Source: Salinicoccus carnicancri Crm
Lineage (GTDB): Bacteria; Bacillota; Bacilli; Staphylococcales; Salinicoccaceae
Length of the DNA stretch: 64,000 nt
Assembly: GCF_000330705.1 (NCBI RefSeq)
Contig: NZ_ANAM01000001.1
Coordinates: forward strand, 558,001 to 622,000
Direction of reading: 5' to 3'
The position numbers were made by a program, and so were the translations under genes. Under the pieces are notes generated by a model that saw only the letters and a program-made list of their open reading frames with translations, was not told where the DNA came from and ran no database searches. The stretch's first letter is position 1. The number at the start of each line of letters is the position of its first letter. Shown piece by piece: positions 24,881 to 53,776 of the stretch.

Positions 24881-24911
24881 ATGCTGGCCGTACGGATTTT
24901 CAGTGTTTTCC

Positions 24912-25157
24912 GGCCACGGCGGCAGTCGCGGTGTCCGCCAAAGGGGTTTTTCGGCCACGGTGGAAATCGCGGTTTCCGCCAAAGGGGTTTTCCGGCCACG
25001 GTGGCAGTCGCGGTGTCCGCCAAAGGGGTTTTCCGGCCACGGCGGCATTCGCGGTGTCCGCCAAAGGGGTTTTCCGGCCACGGCGGCATTCGCGGTGTCC
25101 GCCAAAGGGGTTTTCCGGCCACGGCGGCATTCGCTGTGTCCGCCAGAAGAACCTGAG
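24912..25157 (+). repeat. Tandem array 1: six copies of a 41-bp hairpin repeat
   Basis: Units begin GGCCACGG at 24912, 24953, 24994, 25035, 25076 and 25117, exactly 41 bp apart. The typical unit has GGCCACGGCGGCATTCGCGG followed by TGTCCGCCAAAGGGGTTTTCC. Within a unit CGGCCAC can pair with GTGTCCG with one C-U mismatch. Unit 2 has three substitutions and the last unit degenerates after CCGCC. The array is head-to-tail without spacers. It is open in several frames only because the unit lacks stop codons; the 41-bp period shifts frame each unit and there is no start signal, so it is taken as non-coding. Confidence 0.92.
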
Positions 25158-43563: not shown

Positions 43564-46500
43564 GCAGCTCGAAGCCATTGAATATGAAGGTTCCGATGTA
43601 CTGGTGGCGGCTGCTGCCGGAAGCGGAAAGACGACGGTTCTGGTCGAACGCATCATCCGGAAGATACTGGAGGAGAAGTATTCGATCGATGAAGTCCTCG
43701 TCGCAACCTTCACCAACATGAGCGCACGCGATATGAAGGAGAAGATCGAGAAGGCGCTCAAGACCGCATTTCTTGAAAAGAGGGATCCGAGAATATACAG
43801 GGAGTCCCTGAAGCTTAAAGAGGCACATATATCGACGCTGCACAGCTTCTGTCTGCACCTCATACAGATGCACTATAATGTGATCGGGCTGTCCCCGGAT
43901 ATGCGCACACTCGGCGATATCGAGATGAAGCTCCGCCTGGAAAATGTGATTTCCGGCGTGCTCGAATCCTATTACATGGCGCCGGATGAAGATTTCCGGC
44001 ATGTTTCCACCATGCTGTCGACGGATAAGAGCAACGAGGGGCTGCTCGGTGCCATACGGGATCTTTATTATACGGCGGTTGCAAGCCCCGATCCACAGGG
44101 GTTCCTCGAAGGGAACAGGGACCAGTATATCGATGTGGACCGTCTCGAAGCCATACTCTCTGAGCACAACCACAACCTCAGGCTGAAGCTTGATGCGCTT
44201 TTTGCAGACCTTGGATTGCTCCGCACCCATTACAGGACGGCGGTGCATGAATCGATCAAGGAGGCCCAGGTGGTGGAAGCCTACGATGCGCTTGAATCAG
44301 CCGTCATGTCTGTCGAGCGGGCGGGTGGTGATGTGATGGAGGGACGGCCGGTGGAACTGCCGGCATTCCCGCTCAAGGACGGCCGTTCGGCCTTCATCAA
44401 AAATATTGCCGACCCCGATCGGAAAGCGGCGCTGCTTGCCGTGCACAAGCGCGTCCGCGACCGCTACAATGAGGTGCGGGATGCACCGGCGTATGATCTC
44501 GGGCGCGTAAAGGCGGAGCTCGCACCGATGAACGGGGCCAATAACGTACTCATCGATATCGCGCTCAAGGTGATAGAGAGGTTCAGGCAGCAGAAGCGCA
44601 CGCGGAATGAAATGGACTTTTCGGATTATGAACATTATGCGCTCGGGATACTGAACGCCGGGGACGGGGCGGTCGGGGAGCGCTACCGCCGCCAGTTCAA
44701 GGAGATCATGATTGATGAGTATCAGGATATCAACCGTGTACAGGAGGCCATCATCCAGGTGCTTAAGACCGGCGGTGAATCGGATGGCAACCTTTTCATG
44801 GTGGGCGATGTCAAACAGTCCATCTACAAGTTCCGCCAGGCAGACCCGTCCCTGTTCATCACCAAGTCTGAGCGCTTCAAGACAGGGGGCAGCGGGCGGC
44901 TGATCAGCCTGAACCACAATTTCCGCTCGCGCGGGGAAGTGCTCGGCCTTACGAACACCGTATTCGAGAAGATCATGGACCGTGAAGTCGGTGAAATCAC
45001 GTATGATGACACGCACCGGCTTGTGCAGGGGAACTATCTCGAGGAGGCGCCGCTGCATTCGGAGTGCCATATCATCGAAAACAAGGCTGAATATGGCGGG
45101 GATGCAGAGATAAAGCATATCATCGATGTGGTCAGGGACCTTGTACGGAAAGGTGTGGCCTACAGGGATATCGTCATCCTGACGCGCAACACGCGGGATA
45201 ATGAATCCTACCGCCGGCTGCTCGGTGAAGCTGAACTGCCGGTGTTCGTCAACAACCGCTCGGGCTATCTCGATACGCTTGAGATCCGTACGATGATCAG
45301 CATCCTTTCCGTCATCGACAATCCGCTTCAGGACGATCATCTTGTCGGCATGATGCGGCTGCCGATGTTCGGTTTCACAGAAGATGAGATTGCGCGGATC
45401 CGTGCATCGTCGGATGCGGATTACATGTACGGTGCACTGATCGAATATGATGGCCCGGCGGTGGTCATGAAGAAGCTCCACGAATTCCGGGATGCACTCC
45501 GGTCGCTCCAGGAATATGCGCGGTATATGAGTGTGCCGGAGCTGATTGATGAAATCTATCTCGAATTCAGCATCCTGGAATACTTCGCCGGTCAGAAAGG
45601 CGGCAGGTCAAGGCGTGCGAACCTGAACGGCTTCATAGAAAAAGCGCGTGAATTCGAAGCCATGTCACAGCTTTCACTGTATGAATTCATCTCATACATC
45701 CACCGCATGATCGATGACGGACAGGACTTCGGCGAAGAGAACACCGTGTCGCCGGACGATGACACGCTCCGTGTCATGACGATCCATGCCTCCAAGGGGC
45801 TTGAATTCAATTATGTGATATATGCAGGGCTGCACCGCCGCCTGAACATGATGGACGTTTCGAAAAAGATCAGTGTCCACCCTGGGCAGGGCATTGCGAT
45901 GAAGCGGTTCCTGCCGGAGGCACTTGCAGTGATGCCGAGCATCCACTCGGAAGTCGCATCCAGACAGGTACTCCGGGAGCTGATCAGCGAGGAGATGCGG
46001 CTTGTGTATGTAGCGATGACCCGTGCGATCGACAAGCTCATCATGCCGCTGGTCTACGACGGGGAGTATAAGGAGAAATATTCCTATGAACCGGGGTTGA
46101 TCAATGCCGATGACAGGCTGAACGCCCGGACCATACAGGACCTCATCGCACCGATCTTCATCAATGAGGATATGCCGTTCCTCACGCTGGAGTATGCTGA
46201 ACCTCCGGAGGAGACCGGAACGGATGACAGGCGCTACGCATCGCTTTCTGAACTCGAAGGGCTGAAGGTGCCGGACAATGAACCGCTGAAGGAGAGGCTG
46301 TTCTATAAATACCCGCATCAGGCCGAGGCCCGTACCGTATTCAAGGAGTCCGTGACGGAAATCAAGCGGCGCAATGAAACGCCGCCGGACGACAGTGCAG
46401 TCATCCGCCATGACCGGACGCCAAACCTGAAACTGCCGAACTTCCGCAGCGAGACGCTCGATGCCCCGGTCTTCGGTACTGTGATGCACCAGATGATGAT

Positions 46501-46990
46501 GCACATGATGAACCGCTACGAAGAAGTACGCGGGCTCGGAGCTGTGGAACGTGCCGCGTACGTCAGGCGCCTGGTTGAAGACAACACCCTGGAAGACATG
46601 CTCATCACCGATATGCACAGGGAGAAGATGGTGGAGAACATCGAACAGTTCCTGTCAGACAGTGTGATGGCCGAACTGCTGGCGCGCCAGGAATCCATCC
46701 ATACCGAGATTCCGTTCATCATGAACCAGAAGGCGATCGGCTACTCGCAATACGAGGACCAGATGGTTCAGGGGATCATGGATGCCCTGCTCGAGATCGA
46801 CGGCAGCTACGTCATACTGGATTACAAGACGGACCGCGTGGCAGGGACCGGACTCGGACCGTCGGATCTCGTGGAAAGATACGGTACACAGATGGATATC
46901 TACAGGCGCTCTGCGATGCAGGCCCTCGGAAAAGATGTTACTGTTTACCTATATTTCTTTGATTATGGAGCGATTAAAATTGAAAACTGA
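43544..46990 (+). CDS. addA: ATP-dependent helicase/nuclease subunit A
   Basis: A 1148-residue UvrD-like helicase with a C-terminal RecB-type nuclease. Helicase motif I is AAAAGSGKTTVL (about residues 24-35), motif II IDEYQD, motif III VGDVKQSIYKFRQADP, motif V TIHASKGLEF and motif VI VAMTRAIDKL. The nuclease site is YVILDYKTDR near the C terminus. The ATG at 43544 has GGGGTGGGAG upstream. With AddB it forms the Chi-recognising recombination enzyme. Confidence 0.96.
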   Translation: MVQWTDKQLEAIEYEGSDVLVAAAAGSGKTTVLVERIIRKILEEKYSIDEVLVATFTNMSARDMKEKIEKALKTAFLEKRDPRIYRESLKLKEAHISTLHSFCLHLIQMHYNVIGLSPDMRTLGDIEMKLRLENVISGVLESYYMAPDEDFRHVSTMLSTDKSNEGLLGAIRDLYYTAVASPDPQGFLEGNRDQYIDVDRLEAILSEHNHNLRLKLDALFADLGLLRTHYRTAVHESIKEAQVVEAYDALESAVMSVERAGGDVMEGRPVELPAFPLKDGRSAFIKNIADPDRKAALLAVHKRVRDRYNEVRDAPAYDLGRVKAELAPMNGANNVLIDIALKVIERFRQQKRTRNEMDFSDYEHYALGILNAGDGAVGERYRRQFKEIMIDEYQDINRVQEAIIQVLKTGGESDGNLFMVGDVKQSIYKFRQADPSLFITKSERFKTGGSGRLISLNHNFRSRGEVLGLTNTVFEKIMDREVGEITYDDTHRLVQGNYLEEAPLHSECHIIENKAEYGGDAEIKHIIDVVRDLVRKGVAYRDIVILTRNTRDNESYRRLLGEAELPVFVNNRSGYLDTLEIRTMISILSVIDNPLQDDHLVGMMRLPMFGFTEDEIARIRASSDADYMYGALIEYDGPAVVMKKLHEFRDALRSLQEYARYMSVPELIDEIYLEFSILEYFAGQKGGRSRRANLNGFIEKAREFEAMSQLSLYEFISYIHRMIDDGQDFGEENTVSPDDDTLRVMTIHASKGLEFNYVIYAGLHRRLNMMDVSKKISVHPGQGIAMKRFLPEALAVMPSIHSEVASRQVLRELISEEMRLVYVAMTRAIDKLIMPLVYDGEYKEKYSYEPGLINADDRLNARTIQDLIAPIFINEDMPFLTLEYAEPPEETGTDDRRYASLSELEGLKVPDNEPLKERLFYKYPHQAEARTVFKESVTEIKRRNETPPDDSAVIRHDRTPNLKLPNFRSETLDAPVFGTVMHQMMMHMMNRYEEVRGLGAVERAAYVRRLVEDNTLEDMLITDMHREKMVENIEQFLSDSVMAELLARQESIHTEIPFIMNQKAIGYSQYEDQMVQGIMDALLEIDGSYVILDYKTDRVAGTGLGPSDLVERYGTQMDIYRRSAMQALGKDVTVYLYFFDYGAIKIEN

Positions 46991-48089
46991 AGAAGGCAGC
47001 ATCAGATTCATCCTGGCCATCACACTGTTCCCGGTACTTCTCATGAACGGGATGCACTACATGATGCCGTATGATGCGATAAATGTATATGAATATCTGA
47101 GCGGTGACTCGCTCAGCTCATACCATCTTGTCAACATATTCACCGGCAGCGCCGTCATGCCTCTGGTCGCTCTCATCACCGGCTACATGCTGAACCATTG
47201 GCGCGACAGGGGGATTTTGGACCTTGGCAAAATAACAATCACCATCTTCCTTGCGGGCTCACTCCAGTCGGTGTTCGTCTTTGCCTGGGATTTCCTGCCG
47301 GGACTTGCCCTGACCGCGCTTGTGGGACTCATATTCCTGAAATCGAAATGGTTCGTGCCCATGATTTCGGCGGTTCTCCTGTTCGCATTCCACATGGCCG
47401 CGAACGTCCTGCCGGATATTTTGGAGAATATCGGTTCGCCGACGGATAAGATGTATTCGGCCATCCAGACGGTGAACGAACAGACGAGTGTGTACAGGAG
47501 CAGCGACTACTTCGCGATCATCAGCAAAAATATCGAGATATTCACAGGCGACATCCCGGGCATGGTGTATACCCTCCTGTTCACTGTCCTGCCGTGGCTG
47601 CTCTTTGGCATGGCGCTGTCCAAAGTCGGTATCAAAGACCTGCTCGCTGCAAATCATATACTCGCAGTAGCGATGTTCATCACCCTTGCGGGCGGCGGGC
47701 TTGCCCTGAAGCTGATCCAGGTCGTCACGCTCGGGACCTACAGCGGCACGCTGCTGGCTGACAATTTCGGCGGTCCCGTCCTCGCCCTCGGATACTTCAT
47801 CCTGCTCCTGTTCATATCAGCCGTCATTCCGGAAAAGGCCGTGGCGCTGTTTGCACCGCTCGGCGGCAGGGTACTGACGATGTATATAGCCGGCAACATC
47901 CTGCTGATATTCATCTTCTACGGAATCGGATTCACGGCGTACGGCGACGTCAGCATACTTTCGATGGTGCTGATCATGACGGCGGTCTACGTGCTGTCAG
48001 TCGCCGTCGGGTTTTTATTCCGGAAAGCTGGGGCAGGGGGCATCGAAACACTATTTGCGGATAATTCAGATAAATGCGGGGAAAATTGA
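46980..48089 (+). CDS. Polytopic membrane protein, unidentified (DUF418-like layout)
   Basis: About 369 residues with nine or ten hydrophobic helices. The general plan (two N-terminal helices with a Met/Pro-rich loop, LVNIFTGSAVMPLVALITGYML, and a late GGRVLTMYIAGNILLIFIFYGIGF) is reminiscent of DUF418/YeiB-type membrane proteins, but the match is loose and no catalytic motif was recognised. The start is uncertain: TTG 46980 has GGAG nine bases upstream, ATG 46965 has none; both overlap the addA 3' end, implying coupling. No signal of secretion beyond the membrane helices is seen. Confidence 0.6.
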   Translation: MKTEEGSIRFILAITLFPVLLMNGMHYMMPYDAINVYEYLSGDSLSSYHLVNIFTGSAVMPLVALITGYMLNHWRDRGILDLGKITITIFLAGSLQSVFVFAWDFLPGLALTALVGLIFLKSKWFVPMISAVLLFAFHMAANVLPDILENIGSPTDKMYSAIQTVNEQTSVYRSSDYFAIISKNIEIFTGDIPGMVYTLLFTVLPWLLFGMALSKVGIKDLLAANHILAVAMFITLAGGGLALKLIQVVTLGTYSGTLLADNFGGPVLALGYFILLLFISAVIPEKAVALFAPLGGRVLTMYIAGNILLIFIFYGIGFTAYGDVSILSMVLIMTAVYVLSVAVGFLFRKAGAGGIETLFADNSDKCGEN

Positions 48090-48135
48090 CCGGTTGTCTG
48101 TTATAATGGATAAAACAACAAAAGGAGCGTAATCC

Positions 48136-49038
48136 ATGAAATTTTTGACATTTGACTACGGAAACCAGACTTACTACGGGGTTAAGGTAAAGCGCGAGGA
48201 AAGTGCATGGATACTGCCGAAGCTGTTCGAGGATTTCGGCAGTGATGCGGGCTATCCGAAGACGCTGCTCGAGGGGATATCAACATACAATACTCTGGAT
48301 TTCCAGGAAATCGTAAGAAAATTAGTGGAGAAGGCGGACCGGTCCGGCAATGCGGATCAGTATAAAGCACCGTTTGCGGACATAGAATTCCTTGCGCCGG
48401 TGACACCGCCGAACAACGTGATTGCGTTCGGACGCAACTACAAAAAGCACGCAGAGGAGCTGGACAACGAAGTTGAGAGCCTCTATGTATTCACGAAGGC
48501 TGCAACAAGCCTCGTCGGGGATGAAGCTGTCATTCCGGACCATGGGGAGGTAACCAGCGCGCTCGACTATGAAGGGGAGCTTGGCGTTGTCATCGGCAAG
48601 CGTGCGGACAGGATAGAAAGCTCGATGGCACTCGATTACATCTACGGCTATACGATCATCAACGATATCACGGCACGCGACCTGCAGAAGAAGCACCTCC
48701 TGCCGTTCCTGTCGAAAAGCCTGAAGGGCGGCTGCCCGATGGGGCCGTTCATCGTCACGAAGGATGAGCTGCCGAATCCGGAGCAGACATCCATCGTCAC
48801 GAAGGTGAATGAGGAGATCCGCCAGGACGGCAGTACATCAGAGATGGTGCTGAAGCTTGATGAACTGATTGCGGAAGTTTCCAAGTACGTCGTTCTTGAG
48901 CCGGGTGACATCATCGCAACCGGCACACCGGGGGGTGTCGGCGCCGGAATGACCCCGCCGCAATTTTTGAAAAAGGGTGACGAAGTCCGTATTTCCATCA
49001 ATGGAATCGGCACACTTACGACATATATCGGTGAATGA
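48136..49038 (+). CDS. Fumarylacetoacetate hydrolase (FAH) family protein
   Basis: A 300-residue protein whose C-terminal two-thirds is the FAH fold: [16 protein letters not shown], the metal ligands in [21 protein letters not shown] and [13 protein letters not shown]. Family members cleave carbon-carbon bonds in or decarboxylate beta-diketo acids, and several act as oxaloacetate decarboxylase or ureidoglycolate lyase. The substrate is not clear. AAAGGAGCGTAATCC precedes the ATG. It follows addA in staphylococci as well. Confidence 0.88.
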
Positions 49039-49094
49039 AAATCCGGGCGGATATGTTAGAATGGTAAGTGATTCACAATAGAAAGGGAGATTTC

Positions 49095-49469
49095 ATGATA
49101 CACTTGCACCTTACAGCAATTGTCCTTGCAGTTGTGTTCTTCTTCATCACTTACTTTTCAATTAAAAATCCGGGGGATCCGGATGCAAAGTACGCAAAAG
49201 TTCCCCATATGATTGCAAGACTGTTTTACGTCATCGTCCTTGTATCAGGCCTTGTTCTGTTCATCCAGGCGATGGGCATCAACGGTATGCTGTACGGCCT
49301 CAAATTCCTTGCCGGCCTGTTTACGCTCGGCCTGATGGAAATGGCAGTGATAAGGAAGAGGAAGGGTACCGGACAGCCGCTGTTCATCATATTCCTCGTG
49401 CTTGCAGTCATCACGATCGGGCTCGGCATCTATCTGCCGATGGGACCGGTCACTGCGCTGTTCAGATAA
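49095..49469 (+). CDS. yisL: YisL family (DUF1516, UPF0344) membrane protein
   Basis: A 124-residue protein with four predicted helices spaced over its whole length. It begins MIHLHLTAIVLAVVFFFI and has KYAKVPHMIARLFYV, which match YisL/UPF0344. Its function is unknown. AAAGGGAGATTTC lies before the ATG at 49095; an earlier in-frame start at 49068 has no site. A terminator follows. Confidence 0.83.
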   Translation: MIHLHLTAIVLAVVFFFITYFSIKNPGDPDAKYAKVPHMIARLFYVIVLVSGLVLFIQAMGINGMLYGLKFLAGLFTLGLMEMAVIRKRKGTGQPLFIIFLVLAVITIGLGIYLPMGPVTALFR

Positions 49470-49482
49470 CACTGGTGGAATC

Positions 49483-49511
49483 AGACACTCTTTTTAAGGG
49501 AGTGTCTTTTT
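49483..49511 (+). terminator. Intrinsic terminator after yisL
   Basis: AGACACTC pairs with GAGTGTCT around a short T-rich loop, followed by TTTTT. Confidence 0.78.
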
Positions 49512-49601
49512 CATGGGATTTTGTGAACATTCTTTGAAAATATGATATTTTTATTTTTTATCTAGTATACTTGGGATATTAGACAAGAAGGTAGGGTCAC
49601 A

Positions 49602-51020
49602 ATGCAGAAATTATTGAAATACATAGTGGTGGTGCTGGTAGTGGGCGGCATGTTCCAGCAGGATGCATCAGCCCGGGAAAAGCCGCACGACCGCATCTAT
49701 ACAGTTGTCGTCGACCGATTCCTCAATGCGGATGAATCAAATGATGTCAATGTGACGGATGACGAGACAGAGCCGCTCCCGTTCGGCGGGGATTTTCGCG
49801 GCATACAGGAAAATCTGGAATACATACATGACATGGGATTCGACACACTCATGCTGTCGCCGGTCTTTGAAAGGTCGGCTGAGGACTATCTCGGCTACGA
49901 TGTAGAAAGCTATGGGGAGATTGAGGAATCGTTCGGCGGAGCGGAAGGGTTCCAGTCCCTTGTCGATGCGGCACATGAGATGGATATGAAAGTCGTTGTC
50001 GACATGCCGGCGAGTGCGGTGGAGGGCTACGAAACCCTGCAGGACCCCGAGCTCAATCAACTCCAGCAGGAATACTATTCTGAGATCGGCGATGTGGAGT
50101 TCATCGATCTGAGCGTGCCGGAGAACCAGGACGCGTACAGGGAGATGGCGCAGTCCTTCGTTGATGAATTCGGCATCGACGGCCTCAGCATGAACGTGGT
50201 ACAGGATGGCGTGGACGCCCGCGAATTCATGCCGGAGGGCGTGACGACATACGGAATTCTCGGCAGCGAACCGGTCGGGGCGGAAGGGTTTGACCATGTC
50301 GCTTCAGAATCCATGAGGCAGGATGTCGCAGAGGCCTTCAGCACGACGGATAAGGCGATACCATCCTATCCGGAAGATGGACAGATGCTGCTTGCAGACC
50401 ACTGGTTCACCGAGCGCTTCACAATGCATGCAGCCGGGGAAAATATGTTTCCGGGCACCCGCATACAGCAGCTCACCGCGTACCTGTACGGCTACCCGGG
50501 TCCCATCAGCTTCCAGTACGGGACGGAAGTCGCGCTGAACGGTGATACCATCCCTGCGGTGCACAGGCAGATGGACCTTTGGACAGACCAGGAAGTGGTT
50601 GACTACATCAAGCAGATCAACACTGTATTTACGCAGCACAAACAGCTGCTCGGCGGTGAGATGACGGAATTGAAAGCAGATGGGAGCGGCCACTATGTCG
50701 TCCGGTACGACACCGCCGACATCGATTTCATACTGAACATCAACGACACCTCAAGGACTGAAAACTTCAACGTCCCGCTTGAAGCCGATGACAGGGGCAA
50801 GATGATGAGCGGCATGCTCATCGGAGACAAGCTCAGAGCCGCTGAAGGACAGGACAGCTACAACGCCGTTCTCGACCGGGAGGAGGCGGAACTCTACGCC
50901 ATCACTGAAGAGACCGGTCTCAATAACGGTTACGTCTACGCCGGACTCATCATCTTCGGCGGATTCGGAATATTCATCTGGATCGTAGCCAAACGCCGTA
51001 AGCCAAAAGAAGATATGTAA
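49602..51020 (+). CDS. Membrane-anchored GH13 (alpha-amylase family) protein lacking the catalytic residues
   Basis: A 472-residue exported protein: a signal peptide (residues 1-24, DASA cleavage box), a TIM-barrel with the GH13 plan (DRIYTVVVDRF, GDFRGIQENLEYI, LGYDVESYG), a beta-sandwich end and a C-terminal membrane helix (about 446-463) followed by basic residues. The four GH13 catalytic regions are eroded: region I DxxxNH reads DMPASA (134-139), region II GFRxD reads GLSMN (194-198, so Arg and the nucleophile Asp are lost), and the NHD of region IV is replaced around HAAGEN (276-281). It is probably a cell-surface binding or scaffold protein rather than an amylase. A start at 49602 follows AAGGTAGGGTCACA. 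Confidence 0.82.
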   Translation: MQKLLKYIVVVLVVGGMFQQDASAREKPHDRIYTVVVDRFLNADESNDVNVTDDETEPLPFGGDFRGIQENLEYIHDMGFDTLMLSPVFERSAEDYLGYDVESYGEIEESFGGAEGFQSLVDAAHEMDMKVVVDMPASAVEGYETLQDPELNQLQQEYYSEIGDVEFIDLSVPENQDAYREMAQSFVDEFGIDGLSMNVVQDGVDAREFMPEGVTTYGILGSEPVGAEGFDHVASESMRQDVAEAFSTTDKAIPSYPEDGQMLLADHWFTERFTMHAAGENMFPGTRIQQLTAYLYGYPGPISFQYGTEVALNGDTIPAVHRQMDLWTDQEVVDYIKQINTVFTQHKQLLGGEMTELKADGSGHYVVRYDTADIDFILNINDTSRTENFNVPLEADDRGKMMSGMLIGDKLRAAEGQDSYNAVLDREEAELYAITEETGLNNGYVYAGLIIFGGFGIFIWIVAKRRKPKEDM

Positions 51021-51033
51021 TGATTTTTGTGAG

Positions 51034-51057
51034 AGAGGCCGGTGTGGCCTCTTTTTT
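51034..51057 (+). terminator. Intrinsic terminator after the GH13-like gene
   Basis: AGAGGCC pairs with GGCCTCT around a five-base loop, followed by TTTTTT. Confidence 0.82.
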
Positions 51058-51136
51058 GATGGGACGACGTCCGTATAGCTGAACTGAAATTCCAAATGGC
51101 GGCCGGCAGACTCATTTGATGGCCATGGTCCGATTC

Positions 51137-51173
51137 ACGGAGGCCGATAAGCATTGTTGCCGGCCTCCGTTTT
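51137..51173 (+). terminator. Second terminator-like hairpin
   Basis: ACGGAGGCCG pairs perfectly with CGGCCTCCGT around a 14-base loop and is followed by TTTG. It lies 80 bp behind the first terminator with no gene in between, and about 20 bp before the second repeat array. Confidence 0.65.
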
Positions 51174-51193
51174 GTAGATTTGTAATATTTTCC

Positions 51194-51521
51194 GGACACG
51201 GCGCCGCCCGCGGTGTCCGCCACAAGCGTTTTCCGGACACGGCGCCATCCGCGGTGTCCGCCATGAGCGTTTTCCGGACACGGCGCCGCCCGCGGTGTCC
51301 GCCATGAGCGTTTTCCGGACACGGCGCCGCCTGCGGTGTCCGCCATGAGCGCTTTCCGGACACGGCGCCGCCTGCGGTGTCCGCCATGAGCGCTTTCCGG
51401 ACACGGCGCCATCCGCGGTGTCCGCCATGGGCGTTTTCCGGACACGGCGTCATCCGCGGTGTCCGCCATGAGCGCTTTCCGGACACGGCGCCGCCTGCGG
51501 TGTCCGCCACACACCCGCCCT
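51194..51521 (+). repeat. Tandem array 2: eight copies of a 41-bp hairpin repeat
   Basis: Units begin GGACACGG at 51194, 51235, 51276, 51317, 51358, 51399, 51440 and 51481, exactly 41 bp apart. The typical unit runs GGACACGGCGCCGCCCGCGG then TGTCCGCCATGAGCGTTTTCC. Each can fold with CGGACAC pairing perfectly to GTGTCCG, a G-G mismatch, GCG/CGC and a five-base loop. Units differ at a few positions only (CC/AT before CCGCGG, CAC/ATG after CCGC, GTTTT/GCTTT). It is clearly related to array 1, with the same length and polarity. The last unit decays after CCGCC. Confidence 0.93.
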
Positions 51522-51529
51522 GCCGCAAA

Positions 51530-51573
51530 AGAACCGCCGTTCCCGCTCCTATAGGAGGCGGCACGGCGGTTCT
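51530..51573 (-). terminator. Terminator of the cdr gene
   Basis: AGAACCGCCGT pairs perfectly with ACGGCGGTTCT; the interior CCGCTCCTATAGGAGGCGG extends the hairpin. On the minus strand it ends in TTCTTTT, about 15 bp behind the cdr stop. A GACCGATCGGTC palindrome (51579-51590) overlaps that stop. Confidence 0.8.
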
Positions 51574-51588
51574 CAATCGACCGATCGG

Positions 51589-52932
51589 TCATTCATCGAG
51601 CTTCTTCATTTTTTCAATCGTTTTGTAGCCGAGCATGTTGAGCACACTTTTCGGGCTGGAGTACGGCGGGGAGTATGCGACTTCGATGTTGGCGAGGTCG
51701 GCCGCCGTCCCGCCGAGCCGGATATGTGCGGCGAGTATGTCGATGCGTTTGTCGACGCCTTCGGTGCCGACGACGGCGGCGCGCAGAATCTTGCCGTCTG
51801 CTTTTGACACATAGATCCGCACCCGGATGGGGACGCTGCCGTCCATGTATCCGGCTTTGTTCCGCTGCCGGTGGTCGACGATGAAGTGGTCGTACCCGGT
51901 GACTTCGTGCTGCCCGAGTCCAAGCGTCGCGATATCATAGCCGAAGAACCGCATGATGTTGGTGCCGAGCAGTCCCTCGAACACGACGTCTCCATTTCCG
52001 CTGATCTGGCTGGCGATGACGTATGCCATGCGGTGGGCACCCCAGGCGAGGGCGACCGTCGTCTTCCCGCCCGTATGCTGGTAGAATGTCTCGATGGCGT
52101 CCCCCAGCGCATAGACGGACTCGGCGCTCGTACGGCCTGTCTCACCGGTGCAGATGAATCCATCATCGTTCAATTCAATGCCGGAGCCCTGCAGGAATTC
52201 CGTCCGCGGCAGTATGCCGATGCCTGCAACGATCATCGGGGCATCGATTTCCTCGCCATTATCAAGCGTCGCGACATTGCCGTCGACTTCCACGATTTCG
52301 GTGTTGAGCCTGACATCGACCCCCTGGCGTTCCATCTCCTCGATGAAGAAATCCCCCATATCGTCTTCAAGAGGACGGTAGACTTCATCGCTCCGGTGGA
52401 TAAAGGTCACGTGCATGCCGCGTCTGACAAAGTTCTCGATCAGTTCGAGACCGATGTATCCGGCACCGATGACGACGACCTTATCCACATCATGCCTGTC
52501 GATATGAGATTTGATGCCGTCCAGATCCTCGAGGTTGTGCAGGACGAATGCCTGCGGAACATCGAGCAACGCGGACAGAGTCTTCGGTGCCCCGCCCGGG
52601 GAGAGGATCAGGTAGTCATAGTCCTCTTCGAACGTATCATTCCCGTTGATATCCTTCACGGTGACTTTCTTCGTTCCGCTGTCCACACGGGTCACTTCAT
52701 GATGCGTCATCACAGTGATATCCCGTTCGGCCATGCTCTCAGGCGTTGCGGCGACGAGCTTGTCCCGGTCGCTCACCTCGCCGCCGATGTTATATGGCAG
52801 GCCGCAGTTGCCGAAGCTGATGTCGCGGCCCTTTTCATAGATTGTTATGCGGATTTCGGGATTTATCCTGCGGAGCTGTGCAGCGGCGGTTGCGCCGCCG
52901 GCCACGCCTCCCACGATAATACAATGCTTCAT
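51589..52932 (-). CDS. cdr: Coenzyme A disulfide reductase
   Basis: A 447-residue flavoprotein that reduces CoA disulfide with NADPH, keeping the CoA pool as the main low-molecular thiol in staphylococci. FAD site IIVGGVAGGATAAAQLRR at the N terminus; single redox Cys at position 43 in SFGNCGLPYNIGG, exactly where the S. aureus enzyme has it; NADPH site VVIGAGYIGLELIENF; FAD site VYALGDAI. The ATG at 52932 has AAGGTGTGTAAT upstream; the frame opens 11 codons earlier without a site. The degV gene ends 1 bp before it. Confidence 0.94.
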   Translation of the reverse strand: MKHCIIVGGVAGGATAAAQLRRINPEIRITIYEKGRDISFGNCGLPYNIGGEVSDRDKLVAATPESMAERDITVMTHHEVTRVDSGTKKVTVKDINGNDTFEEDYDYLILSPGGAPKTLSALLDVPQAFVLHNLEDLDGIKSHIDRHDVDKVVVIGAGYIGLELIENFVRRGMHVTFIHRSDEVYRPLEDDMGDFFIEEMERQGVDVRLNTEIVEVDGNVATLDNGEEIDAPMIVAGIGILPRTEFLQGSGIELNDDGFICTGETGRTSAESVYALGDAIETFYQHTGGKTTVALAWGAHRMAYVIASQISGNGDVVFEGLLGTNIMRFFGYDIATLGLGQHEVTGYDHFIVDHRQRNKAGYMDGSVPIRVRIYVSKADGKILRAAVVGTEGVDKRIDILAAHIRLGGTAADLANIEVAYSPPYSSPKSVLNMLGYKTIEKMKKLDE

Positions 52933-52933
52933 A

Positions 52934-53776
52934 TTACACACCTTCATTGAAGTAGAATAGTGCAACCGTACCGTTGCCTGTATGGCTGCTGATCGTCGGG
53001 CCGATCATGCTGATTTTGACACTGCCGGCGTCCGTCTCCTCCATAATCTTCTTCTGGAGCTGCTCAGCCTGCTTCTGGGCATTCGCATGGGTGATGTGGA
53101 CCTCGCCGGTAACGTTGTCCGCCTGCATGTGTCTGACCATGCTTGAGTGGACTTTTTTGGTGCCTCTGTGCTTTTCCAGGGGAACGAGTCTGCCATCCTC
53201 GACATGGAGCAGTGGCTTGATGTTGAGCAGTCCGCCGAGGAATGCCTGGCCCTTGGACAGGCGCCCGCCTTTGGCGAGGTAGTCCAGGTCATCCACCGTA
53301 AAGAAGTGACGGATGCTTTTTACATCGTTTTCGATTTTCGCGAGGAGCTCCTCTTTCTGGATGCCCCTTTCCAGGTAGCTGTGGGCGCGTTCGACGATGA
53401 GGCCGAGCCCGTAGCTCGCCGCCTTCGTATCGATGATTGTGATGTCCGCATCGGTATGCTCATCAAGGATCGTATCCCGTGCAATGACAGCACTCTGGTA
53501 GGTGCCGGAAAGTTCGCTTGAAAATGCGATGTAGAGGACAGACTCCCCCTTCTCAACATACGGCATGAACATGTCGGTGAACTGTTCAGGATTCGCCTGA
53601 CTGGTAAGCGGACGTTTACCGTCTGCGATTTCATCAAGCACTTCCTGGCTCGATATCTCAATCTGATCCAGGTACTCCTTGTCATCGATGGTAATTTTCA
53701 GCGGGACGAACTCAATTTCCTTCTCCTTGAAGTCCTGCTGGGATATATCAGAACAGCTGTCTGCGAATAACTGCAT
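52934..53776 (-). CDS. DegV family fatty acid-binding protein
   Basis: A 280-residue protein of the DegV/FakB family, whose members hold a fatty acid for phosphorylation by the FakA kinase. The N-terminal FADSCSDIS, the fatty-acid-site PLTSQANPEQF and SSELSGTYQSA blocks, and VEDGRLVPLEKHRGTKKV are typical. GAGAGGAGCGATTGAT precedes the ATG. It lies between the HAD gene and cdr, all on the minus strand and probably one transcript. Confidence 0.9.
   Translation of the reverse strand: MQLFADSCSDISQQDFKEKEIEFVPLKITIDDKEYLDQIEISSQEVLDEIADGKRPLTSQANPEQFTDMFMPYVEKGESVLYIAFSSELSGTYQSAVIARDTILDEHTDADITIIDTKAASYGLGLIVERAHSYLERGIQKEELLAKIENDVKSIRHFFTVDDLDYLAKGGRLSKGQAFLGGLLNIKPLLHVEDGRLVPLEKHRGTKKVHSSMVRHMQADNVTGEVHITHANAQKQAEQLQKKIMEETDAGSVKISMIGPTISSHTGNGTVALFYFNEGV

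Follow-up and report, generated by a model that had tools for sequence, protein, structure and literature searches.

How can a gene with the outward form of an exported alpha-amylase be kept by nearly a whole bacterial family, if the residues on which catalysis depends in such enzymes are missing from its product? The question is raised by a gene (Table 1) in the window, i.e., the whole stretch of 64,000 nucleotides from Salinicoccus carnicancri Crm that was analysed. For this gene, an earlier note had postulated a catalytically dead, membrane-anchored GH13 protein selected for another task, possibly surface polysaccharide binding or scaffolding, comparable to rBAT/4F2hc of animals.

Table 1. 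Features of the locus, numbered from the first letter of the window.
Feature	Position	Strand	Basis
FAH-family (yisK-type) gene, usual neighbour	48136..49038	+	PF01557; synteny
Membrane protein of DUF1516 (yisL-type), usually found upstream	49095..49469	+	PF07457, E 3.6e-27; synteny
Terminator-like hairpin between DUF1516 and amylase-like gene	49483..49507	+	Consensus match; 2 in region, 3.4 expected by chance
Promoter-like site before gene	49542..49571	+	Weak; 4 found, 2.6 expected by chance
Gene for membrane-anchored pseudo-alpha-amylase, 472 aa	49602..51020	+	ORF, ATG start; homologues along protein length
Signal peptide, residues 1-24	49602..49673	+	Sequence; model helix 2-15, low confidence 19-25
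GH13 (beta/alpha)8 barrel, residues about 25-345	49674..50636	+	AF2 model, Foldseek, VIA-align
Region I equivalent DMPASA, residues 134-139 (canonical DxxxNH)	50001..50018	+	Alignments, hhalign
Region II equivalent GLSMN, residues 194-198 (Arg replaced by S196, nucleophile Asp by N198)	50181..50195	+	Alignments, hhalign
Region III equivalent, residues 217-223 (proton-donor column without Glu in the window protein)	50250..50270	+	MAFFT G221, hhalign I219
Region IV equivalent ADHWF, residues 265-269 (stabiliser Asp replaced by F269)	50394..50408	+	Alignments, hhalign
Domain C, beta-sandwich, residues about 346-437	50637..50912	+	Model; weak PF22026 match 352-432, under its cut-off
C-terminal membrane helix, residues 442-465, then basic end	50925..50996	+	Model, hydropathy, homologue tails
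CDR-type pyridine nucleotide-disulphide oxidoreductase, convergent neighbour	51589..52965	-	Family via L148 homologue; synteny
DegV-family gene, conserved flank	52934..53776	-	Family via L148 homologue; synteny

Architecture of the protein and state of its active site

The intact frame and the layout of an exported alpha-amylase with a membrane helix at the C-terminus, both read earlier from the letters, are supported concordantly by the ORF, the structural model and the profile alignment. With a 93-row alignment as input, AlphaFold2 yielded a model with a mean pLDDT of 91.5 and a pTM of 0.86, in which, as also seen with Foldseek and VIA-align, a GH13 alpha-amylase-type barrel is joined to domain C. 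The nearest PDB entry to the ectodomain is the Anoxybacillus alpha-amylase 5a2a (Z 42.6 over 399 residues, rmsd 2.2 A, 29% identity), with 4e2o as the next solved structure (Z 41.8) and GH13 entries filling the fold-match lists, so that the proposed comparison with active GH13 enzymes finds the fold intact. Likewise, phmmer against PDB sequences placed 5a2b/5a2c, 5a2a and 4e2o at the top, and hhalign aligned the protein nearly end to end with triad-bearing GH13_45-type relatives (28% identity, E 7e-76); the match to Pfam PF00128 (E 7.5e-25) covers residues 36-135 only. Fold, domain C and signal peptide are common to the window protein and the GH13_45 alpha-amylases (GTA 4e2o, Anoxybacillus 5a2a-c and BaqA), at 28-29% identity. 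The signal peptide, the least conserved part of the protein in the conservation scoring, would be cleaved after ASA, and the number of cysteines in the protein is zero.

For the catalytic site, 110 different homologues picked from 143 loci were aligned (E-value cut-off 1e-15, with duplicates of identical sequence and further GH13 genes removed), with all 50 Staphylococcales rows in one alignment (A2) and 93 of the 110 proteins, including 43/50 Staphylococcales rows, in another (A3). In the MAFFT alignment, the triad D213, E242 and D310 of an Anoxybacillus-like relative (L127) falls on N198, G221 and F269 of the window protein, and the Asp-Glu-Asp triad of GH13 is found missing with hhalign as well. 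The degeneration of regions I, II and IV described in the earlier note is confirmed, the Glu of region III proved to be lost too, and substitutions affect the His of both region I and region IV as well. As aligned, all three catalytic residues are absent from the window protein, which on the level of residues agrees with the claim of a dead enzyme.

The nucleophile and stabiliser columns are anchored by their conserved neighbours, D193-G194 and R272-F273-T274, and both are paired in the same way when hhalign compares the profile of the 50 Staphylococcales rows with one of 15 triad-bearing rows. The same sites had been recommended for inspection in homologues: in the 50 rows from Staphylococcales, acids are missing from the nucleophile column and from the two residues on either side of it, Phe fills the stabiliser column in every row, the region II Arg is Ser throughout (50/50) and the donor column is free of acids in 48/50, Glu occurring in the other two (L016 and L017, Salinicoccus genus). 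Judged from these alignments, the region III column is poorly anchored and the weak point of the dead-site case, the donor position being G221 by MAFFT and I219 by hhalign. An Asp or Glu stands two places past the donor column, in the column of E223, in 33/50 rows (24 Glu, 9 Asp), and the donor column according to the hhalign pairing is Ile, Phe or Val in 50/50. For the stabiliser column, 31/43 Staphylococcales rows of A3 have an acid no more than two residues away. Outside the order, 44 further rows lack the full triad, 20 of them being acid-free at all three columns; the 33 dead rows of family f6 feature Thr, Gln or Ser in the nucleophile column, and one of these proteins (L073) was also modelled as a confident full fold (pLDDT 89.4).

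In addition to the replacements in regions I-IV described above, the window protein differs from GH13_45 enzymes by the loss of both the LPDL motif and the adjacent Trp pair: QSFVD is found in helix alpha-3 where KWWIK stands, the second Trp corresponding to F186 (Phe in 50/50 Staphylococcales rows), and EFIDL occupies the place of the LPDlx motif in CSR-V. Residues D38, N42, N47 and G62-D64, which we take to be the calcium site as in related enzymes, are mostly retained in the alignments. Thirteen positions, including D95, P136, S196 and F269, are fixed differently in Staphylococcales (43 rows) and triad-bearing proteins (10 rows), and D95, P136, S196, Q201, D266, F269 and E309 are invariant in Staphylococcales.

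Altered catalytic residues among BaqA relatives have been described before. According to PMC5347038, BmaN1 carries an aberrant triad, keeps Glu231 together with a shifted Asp203 and is reported active, and a small group designated 'Nos 28-34', in which the whole triad is substituted, clusters with BaqA. In this respect both resemble the window protein, BmaN1 being compared here by its published residues with its sequence outside the alignments and trees, and Nos 28-34, which may overlap with the window lineage, by its description in print. A still active alpha-amylase of the BmaN1 kind would find a precedent in the hydrolysis of starch reported for this enzyme despite Lys and His at two triad positions (PMC5347038 and PMC11448133), and in the Glu of L016 and L017 and the frequent acid two places on. 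Nevertheless, it appears very improbable for the window protein: the BmaN1-type triad (Asp one place past the nucleophile, Glu as donor, His as stabiliser) is not matched, since an acid near the nucleophile column is missing in all 50 rows, and the uniform Phe of the stabiliser column goes along with the replacement of the Arg in region II and of both His residues (regions I and IV).

The best 19-mer of the C-terminal helix has a Kyte-Doolittle mean of 2.26. In 110/110 homologues, a hydrophobic stretch of 19 residues lies near the C-terminus and precedes at least three Lys/Arg, namely in 50/50 Staphylococcales, 33/33 dead f6, 16/16 triad-bearing and 11/11 other proteins. Because the triad-bearing relatives from genomes are included, the membrane anchor is ancestral; the helix is not peculiar to the window protein, it is a trait of the GH13_45 subfamily. 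The window tail also aligns with the triad-bearing profile in hhalign, and N441, Y444, F455 and F458 are invariant in the 50 Staphylococcales rows; the features compared here are the hydrophobic helix and the basic end, the criterion used for GH13_45 being a conserved stretch of some 30 residues at the C-terminus, five of them aromatic. PMC11448133 states that a transmembrane helix is predicted in the tail and that truncation abolished raw-starch adsorption. As the tail, called starch-binding in print, is equally retained in proteins without an amylase site, a membrane anchor would be the simpler reading.

Distribution, constraint and descent

Homologues along the length of the protein occur in 57/157 genomes of the order Staphylococcales, comprising 32/33 genomes of the window's family, with 12/12 in its genus, the single f2 genome (1/1) and 24/24 of genera g10-g13; the sole non-carrier of the family is 81% complete, and one carrier (G029) has a partial match covering residues 62-471, its counterpart L197 starting near a contig end. 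The gene was found in 0/15 genomes of f3 and in 0/84 of the genomes G073-G156, which belong to the Staphylococcus-like genus g14 wherever a genus is given (three are without a row). Among the best 80 of 197 loci, the carriers named are Salinicoccus, Jeotgalicoccus, Lacicoccus, Phocicoccus, Nosocomiicoccus, Aliicoccus, Mammaliicoccus, Macrococcus and Macrococcoides and, more distantly, Psychrobacillus, Lysinibacillus, Tetzosporium, Neobacillus and Peribacillus; none of these 80 is from Staphylococcus. Genus g14 has lost the gene: FAH and DUF1516 lie together without it in 15 g14 genomes (a weak sixteenth DUF1516 locus, L259, was excluded), with CDR adjacent to DUF1516 in 12/15 and not found within the stretch examined in the remaining three.

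With its counterpart from Salinicoccus sediminis (L008) the window protein shares 94% identity, and dN/dS between the two genes is 0.098 (Nei-Gojobori), with 0.060 for the barrel, 0.265 for domain C, 0.136 for the tail and 0.538 for the signal peptide. Across 17 pairs of dead genes, values range from 0.053 to 0.182, 13 of them being below 0.10, and four triad-bearing pairs gave 0.032-0.062; dS is high in some pairs and one (L012) gave no value. By these ratios, the dead genes are constrained, somewhat less than the triad-bearing ones. Internal stops were found in none of the 57 carriers of the order, which together with the low dN/dS rules out an artefact or a pseudogene. A functionless relic on its way out might be seen in the absence of the gene from the 84 Staphylococcus-like genomes and in the CDR gene adjoining DUF1516 in 12/15 loci; however, the stop-free frames, the range of dN/dS and the several families that carry the gene throughout leave this explanation with next to no likelihood. 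The earlier assumption that the gene is selected for something besides ordinary GH13 catalysis is thus in line with the 57/157 carriers, their stop-free frames and the constraint relative to L008.

Descent was studied with a rooted tree of 80 chosen rows and three outgroup neopullulanases without their first 120 residues, computed by a quick search without bootstrap; both this tree and an earlier one without outgroup, which is compatible with it, were computed without the three catalytic columns. In the rooted tree, triad-bearing rows are basal and a single clade of 67 rows is nested among them (SH-aLRT 98), consisting of 66 rows without the full triad and L216 (D-E-D, with His replaced by Gln). 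The triad-bearing rows around this clade possess the Trp pair and the LPD motif; within it, Staphylococcales and f6 are sister groups (98). Rows of the Neobacillus type mostly keep LPDL and the Trp pair with Pro, Ile/Val and Asn/Tyr/Phe/Leu in place of the triad, and the Peribacillus state is D-D-D. Within the clade, catalysis may have been lost in one step of descent or repeatedly; L125 (H-E-D) represents a separate single loss on the tree. Taken as a whole, the window protein is very probably a dead enzyme that descends from a GH13_45 alpha-amylase.

Several loci with other states of the site were seen in addition. L125 and L145, both of genome G234, show a GH13_45 relative in which the nucleophile is replaced by His with Glu and Asp retained; it adjoins a neopullulanase-type gene, with DegV close by and no malEFG, and possibly represents a separate and recent loss. 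The Bacillaceae loci L216, L228 and L229 have triads of an intermediate kind (D-E-D with Gln for His, T-D-T and D-D-D, respectively), each with another GH13 gene adjoining and DegV near, L228 also with malE and a LacI-type regulator. Further strongly diverged dead relatives (L118 and L120-L123, family f44) feature His, Gln or Tyr in the nucleophile column and have DUF1516 upstream and mostly DegV downstream, with other genes in between.

The chromosomal place of the gene is well conserved, 'next' meaning the next among the genes searched for, so that others may intervene, and several outer loci having a gap of one to three kilobases before the next recognised gene. Among the named Staphylococcales loci with room to see, DUF1516 is next upstream in 40/40 and CDR or DegV downstream in 38/39; Planococcaceae-type loci, to which L217 (Bacillus sp. 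FJAT-22090) was assigned by hand, gave 21/21 for both sides, and 16 other Bacillaceae loci 6/16 and 11/16, respectively. Homologues of malE, malF or malG are present in 0/43 Staphylococcales and 0/21 Planococcaceae-type loci (0/64), and in 1/16 of the other Bacillaceae loci (malE in L228). While the window gene stands alone beside DUF1516, its triad-bearing relatives lie in a malEFG cluster with the order neopullulanase-malE-malF-malG-amylase-LacI regulator (malR) in 10/10 loci with long flanks, 6 of the 16 triad-bearing rows being outside this count and the cluster genes being identified by Pfam on ten proteins from two clusters. In one such cluster (L148), CDR and DegV follow directly, then one other gene and then HAD, as in the window; CDR also follows the cluster of L146, and DegV is found farther on at L149. 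Two f6 genomes (G250 and G441) each contain both a dead gene at this place and a triad-bearing cluster elsewhere. The retention of the gene at the same place across such a wide range of relatives indicates that it probably has another job.

Candidate roles of the anchored barrel

As the L148-type cluster is followed by CDR and DegV like the gene in the window, the dead gene would be the remnant of a maltodextrin-use cluster that harboured the ancestral GH13_45 amylase and was lost around it. The protein would be exported by Sec, its barrel facing the cell wall and held by the C-terminal helix, and would work by binding instead of cutting. We lean slightly towards a pseudoenzyme that acts as a surface-anchored binder by means of its remodelled cleft; that the former substrate cleft would hold a glycan of the cell surface or the environment is a more tentative part of this reading, to which we give somewhat less than an even chance.

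The conservation of the barrel is consistent with such a role. Loops of the old active-site face, which as defined here includes D38 and N42 from the putative calcium site, score 0.713 as the highest class in the barrel (permutation p 0.0006), closely followed by strands with 0.695 and then by other loops and helices with 0.60-0.61, although TIM barrels commonly show conservation on their C-terminal face in any case. Among the catalytic columns, nucleophile and donor vary (0.49 and 0.40, median 0.64), the stabiliser column scoring 1.0. The conserved face and the residues newly fixed there suggest, as far as alignments can tell, a binding cleft with a new ligand, a pattern which fits somewhat better than that expected of a neutral scaffold.

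An alpha-glucan ligand serving nutrition is unlikely, because malF (E 1e-30), a gene of the maltodextrin transporter, is present in just 14/57 carriers and was not found in the window's genome at this threshold; the idea of a role tied to maltodextrin uptake is weakened for the same reason. The search of the window's genome with PF13416 returned one solute-binding protein. The gene is dispensable to g14, in which it is absent.

Scaffold proteins with the same fold are known from animals. The heavy chains rBAT and 4F2hc (SLC3) are membrane-anchored GH13-fold proteins without activity, which possess an N-terminal membrane helix and are linked to a transporter light chain via a cysteine in a disulphide bond. 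Of the likeness drawn in the earlier note, the analogy of an anchored, inactive GH13 fold holds, whereas the topology is opposite, with the anchor helix of the window protein being C-terminal, and the protein has no cysteine; both cases are taken as independent. A dead barrel that stabilises or places a membrane partner as an extracellular module, similar to rBAT/4F2hc and unrelated in detail, would account for the tail in all 110 homologues with its invariant residues and for the fold and domain C retained after the loss of catalysis, and the usual neighbour DUF1516 is a small membrane protein. Still, DUF1516 persists without the gene in 15/15 g14 genomes examined and is thus ruled out as an obligate partner. 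The terminator-like hairpin, which is not above chance, suggests a separate transcript; together with the lack of cysteine and the excess conservation on the old active-site face, it makes a scaffold or chaperone rather doubtful.

A pocket rebuilt for a different reaction by D95, D134, D169, D266 and E309 was also considered. These acids are conserved in at least 42/43 Staphylococcales rows, and D95 is new compared with the triad-bearing relatives. Nevertheless, D134, D266 and E309 are equally conserved in the latter, where they are not the triad, and D95 falls in a gap in 29/29 dead f6 rows (the 31 f6 rows of A3 in this count include two triad-bearing paralogues, L138 and L139), so that a new enzyme seems improbable. 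A broader version of the favoured binder, an old family of pseudoenzymes, shared by Bacillales and Staphylococcales, whose rebuilt cleft with a new ligand or chemistry would serve as a general envelope factor unrelated to starch, is conceivable and in our view not the likelier outcome.

Published context and further observations of the locus

Degenerate GH13_45 sequences are already in print; PMC12695923 reports that most sequences of the subfamily are without complete conserved regions, 140 of 1091 conforming to the subfamily criteria. Among the papers listed in our literature searches, none was recognised as dealing with the anchored lineage, its chromosomal place or the link to the maltodextrin cluster, and the anchored dead lineage and its origin were not found described. 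Annotation by similarity would label these genes as alpha-amylases in Macrococcus, Mammaliicoccus, Jeotgalicoccus, Salinicoccus, Lysinibacillus and relatives, in which such an activity is unlikely judging from the residues. At the same time, the homologues form a natural series, which starts with a triad-bearing enzyme encoded in a sugar-use cluster and ends with a solitary pseudoenzyme; as Neobacillus, Peribacillus and other Bacillaceae supply partly decayed members, the series allows one to trace how catalysis was lost and the protein retained. Should a surface function come to light, this would reveal a conserved envelope component that is missing from the Staphylococcus-like genus.

The Rfam scan of 46500-53000 gave no match at gathering scores. 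Upstream, the frame of a DUF418 membrane protein (46782-48089, + strand) overlaps the end of AddA as listed, its first start codon probably being too early; in many relatives the gene is placed between those for AddA and FAH, and it is unrecognised in Macrococcus loci. Directly 3' of the amylase-like gene, a G+C-rich tandem repeat of 41 bp with an internal inverted repeat spans 51188-51509 in 7.9 copies. Its unit also occurs four times from 24910 (about 24910-25130). Locus L164 of S. sediminis contains the unit seven times, and it was not seen in L165-L171.
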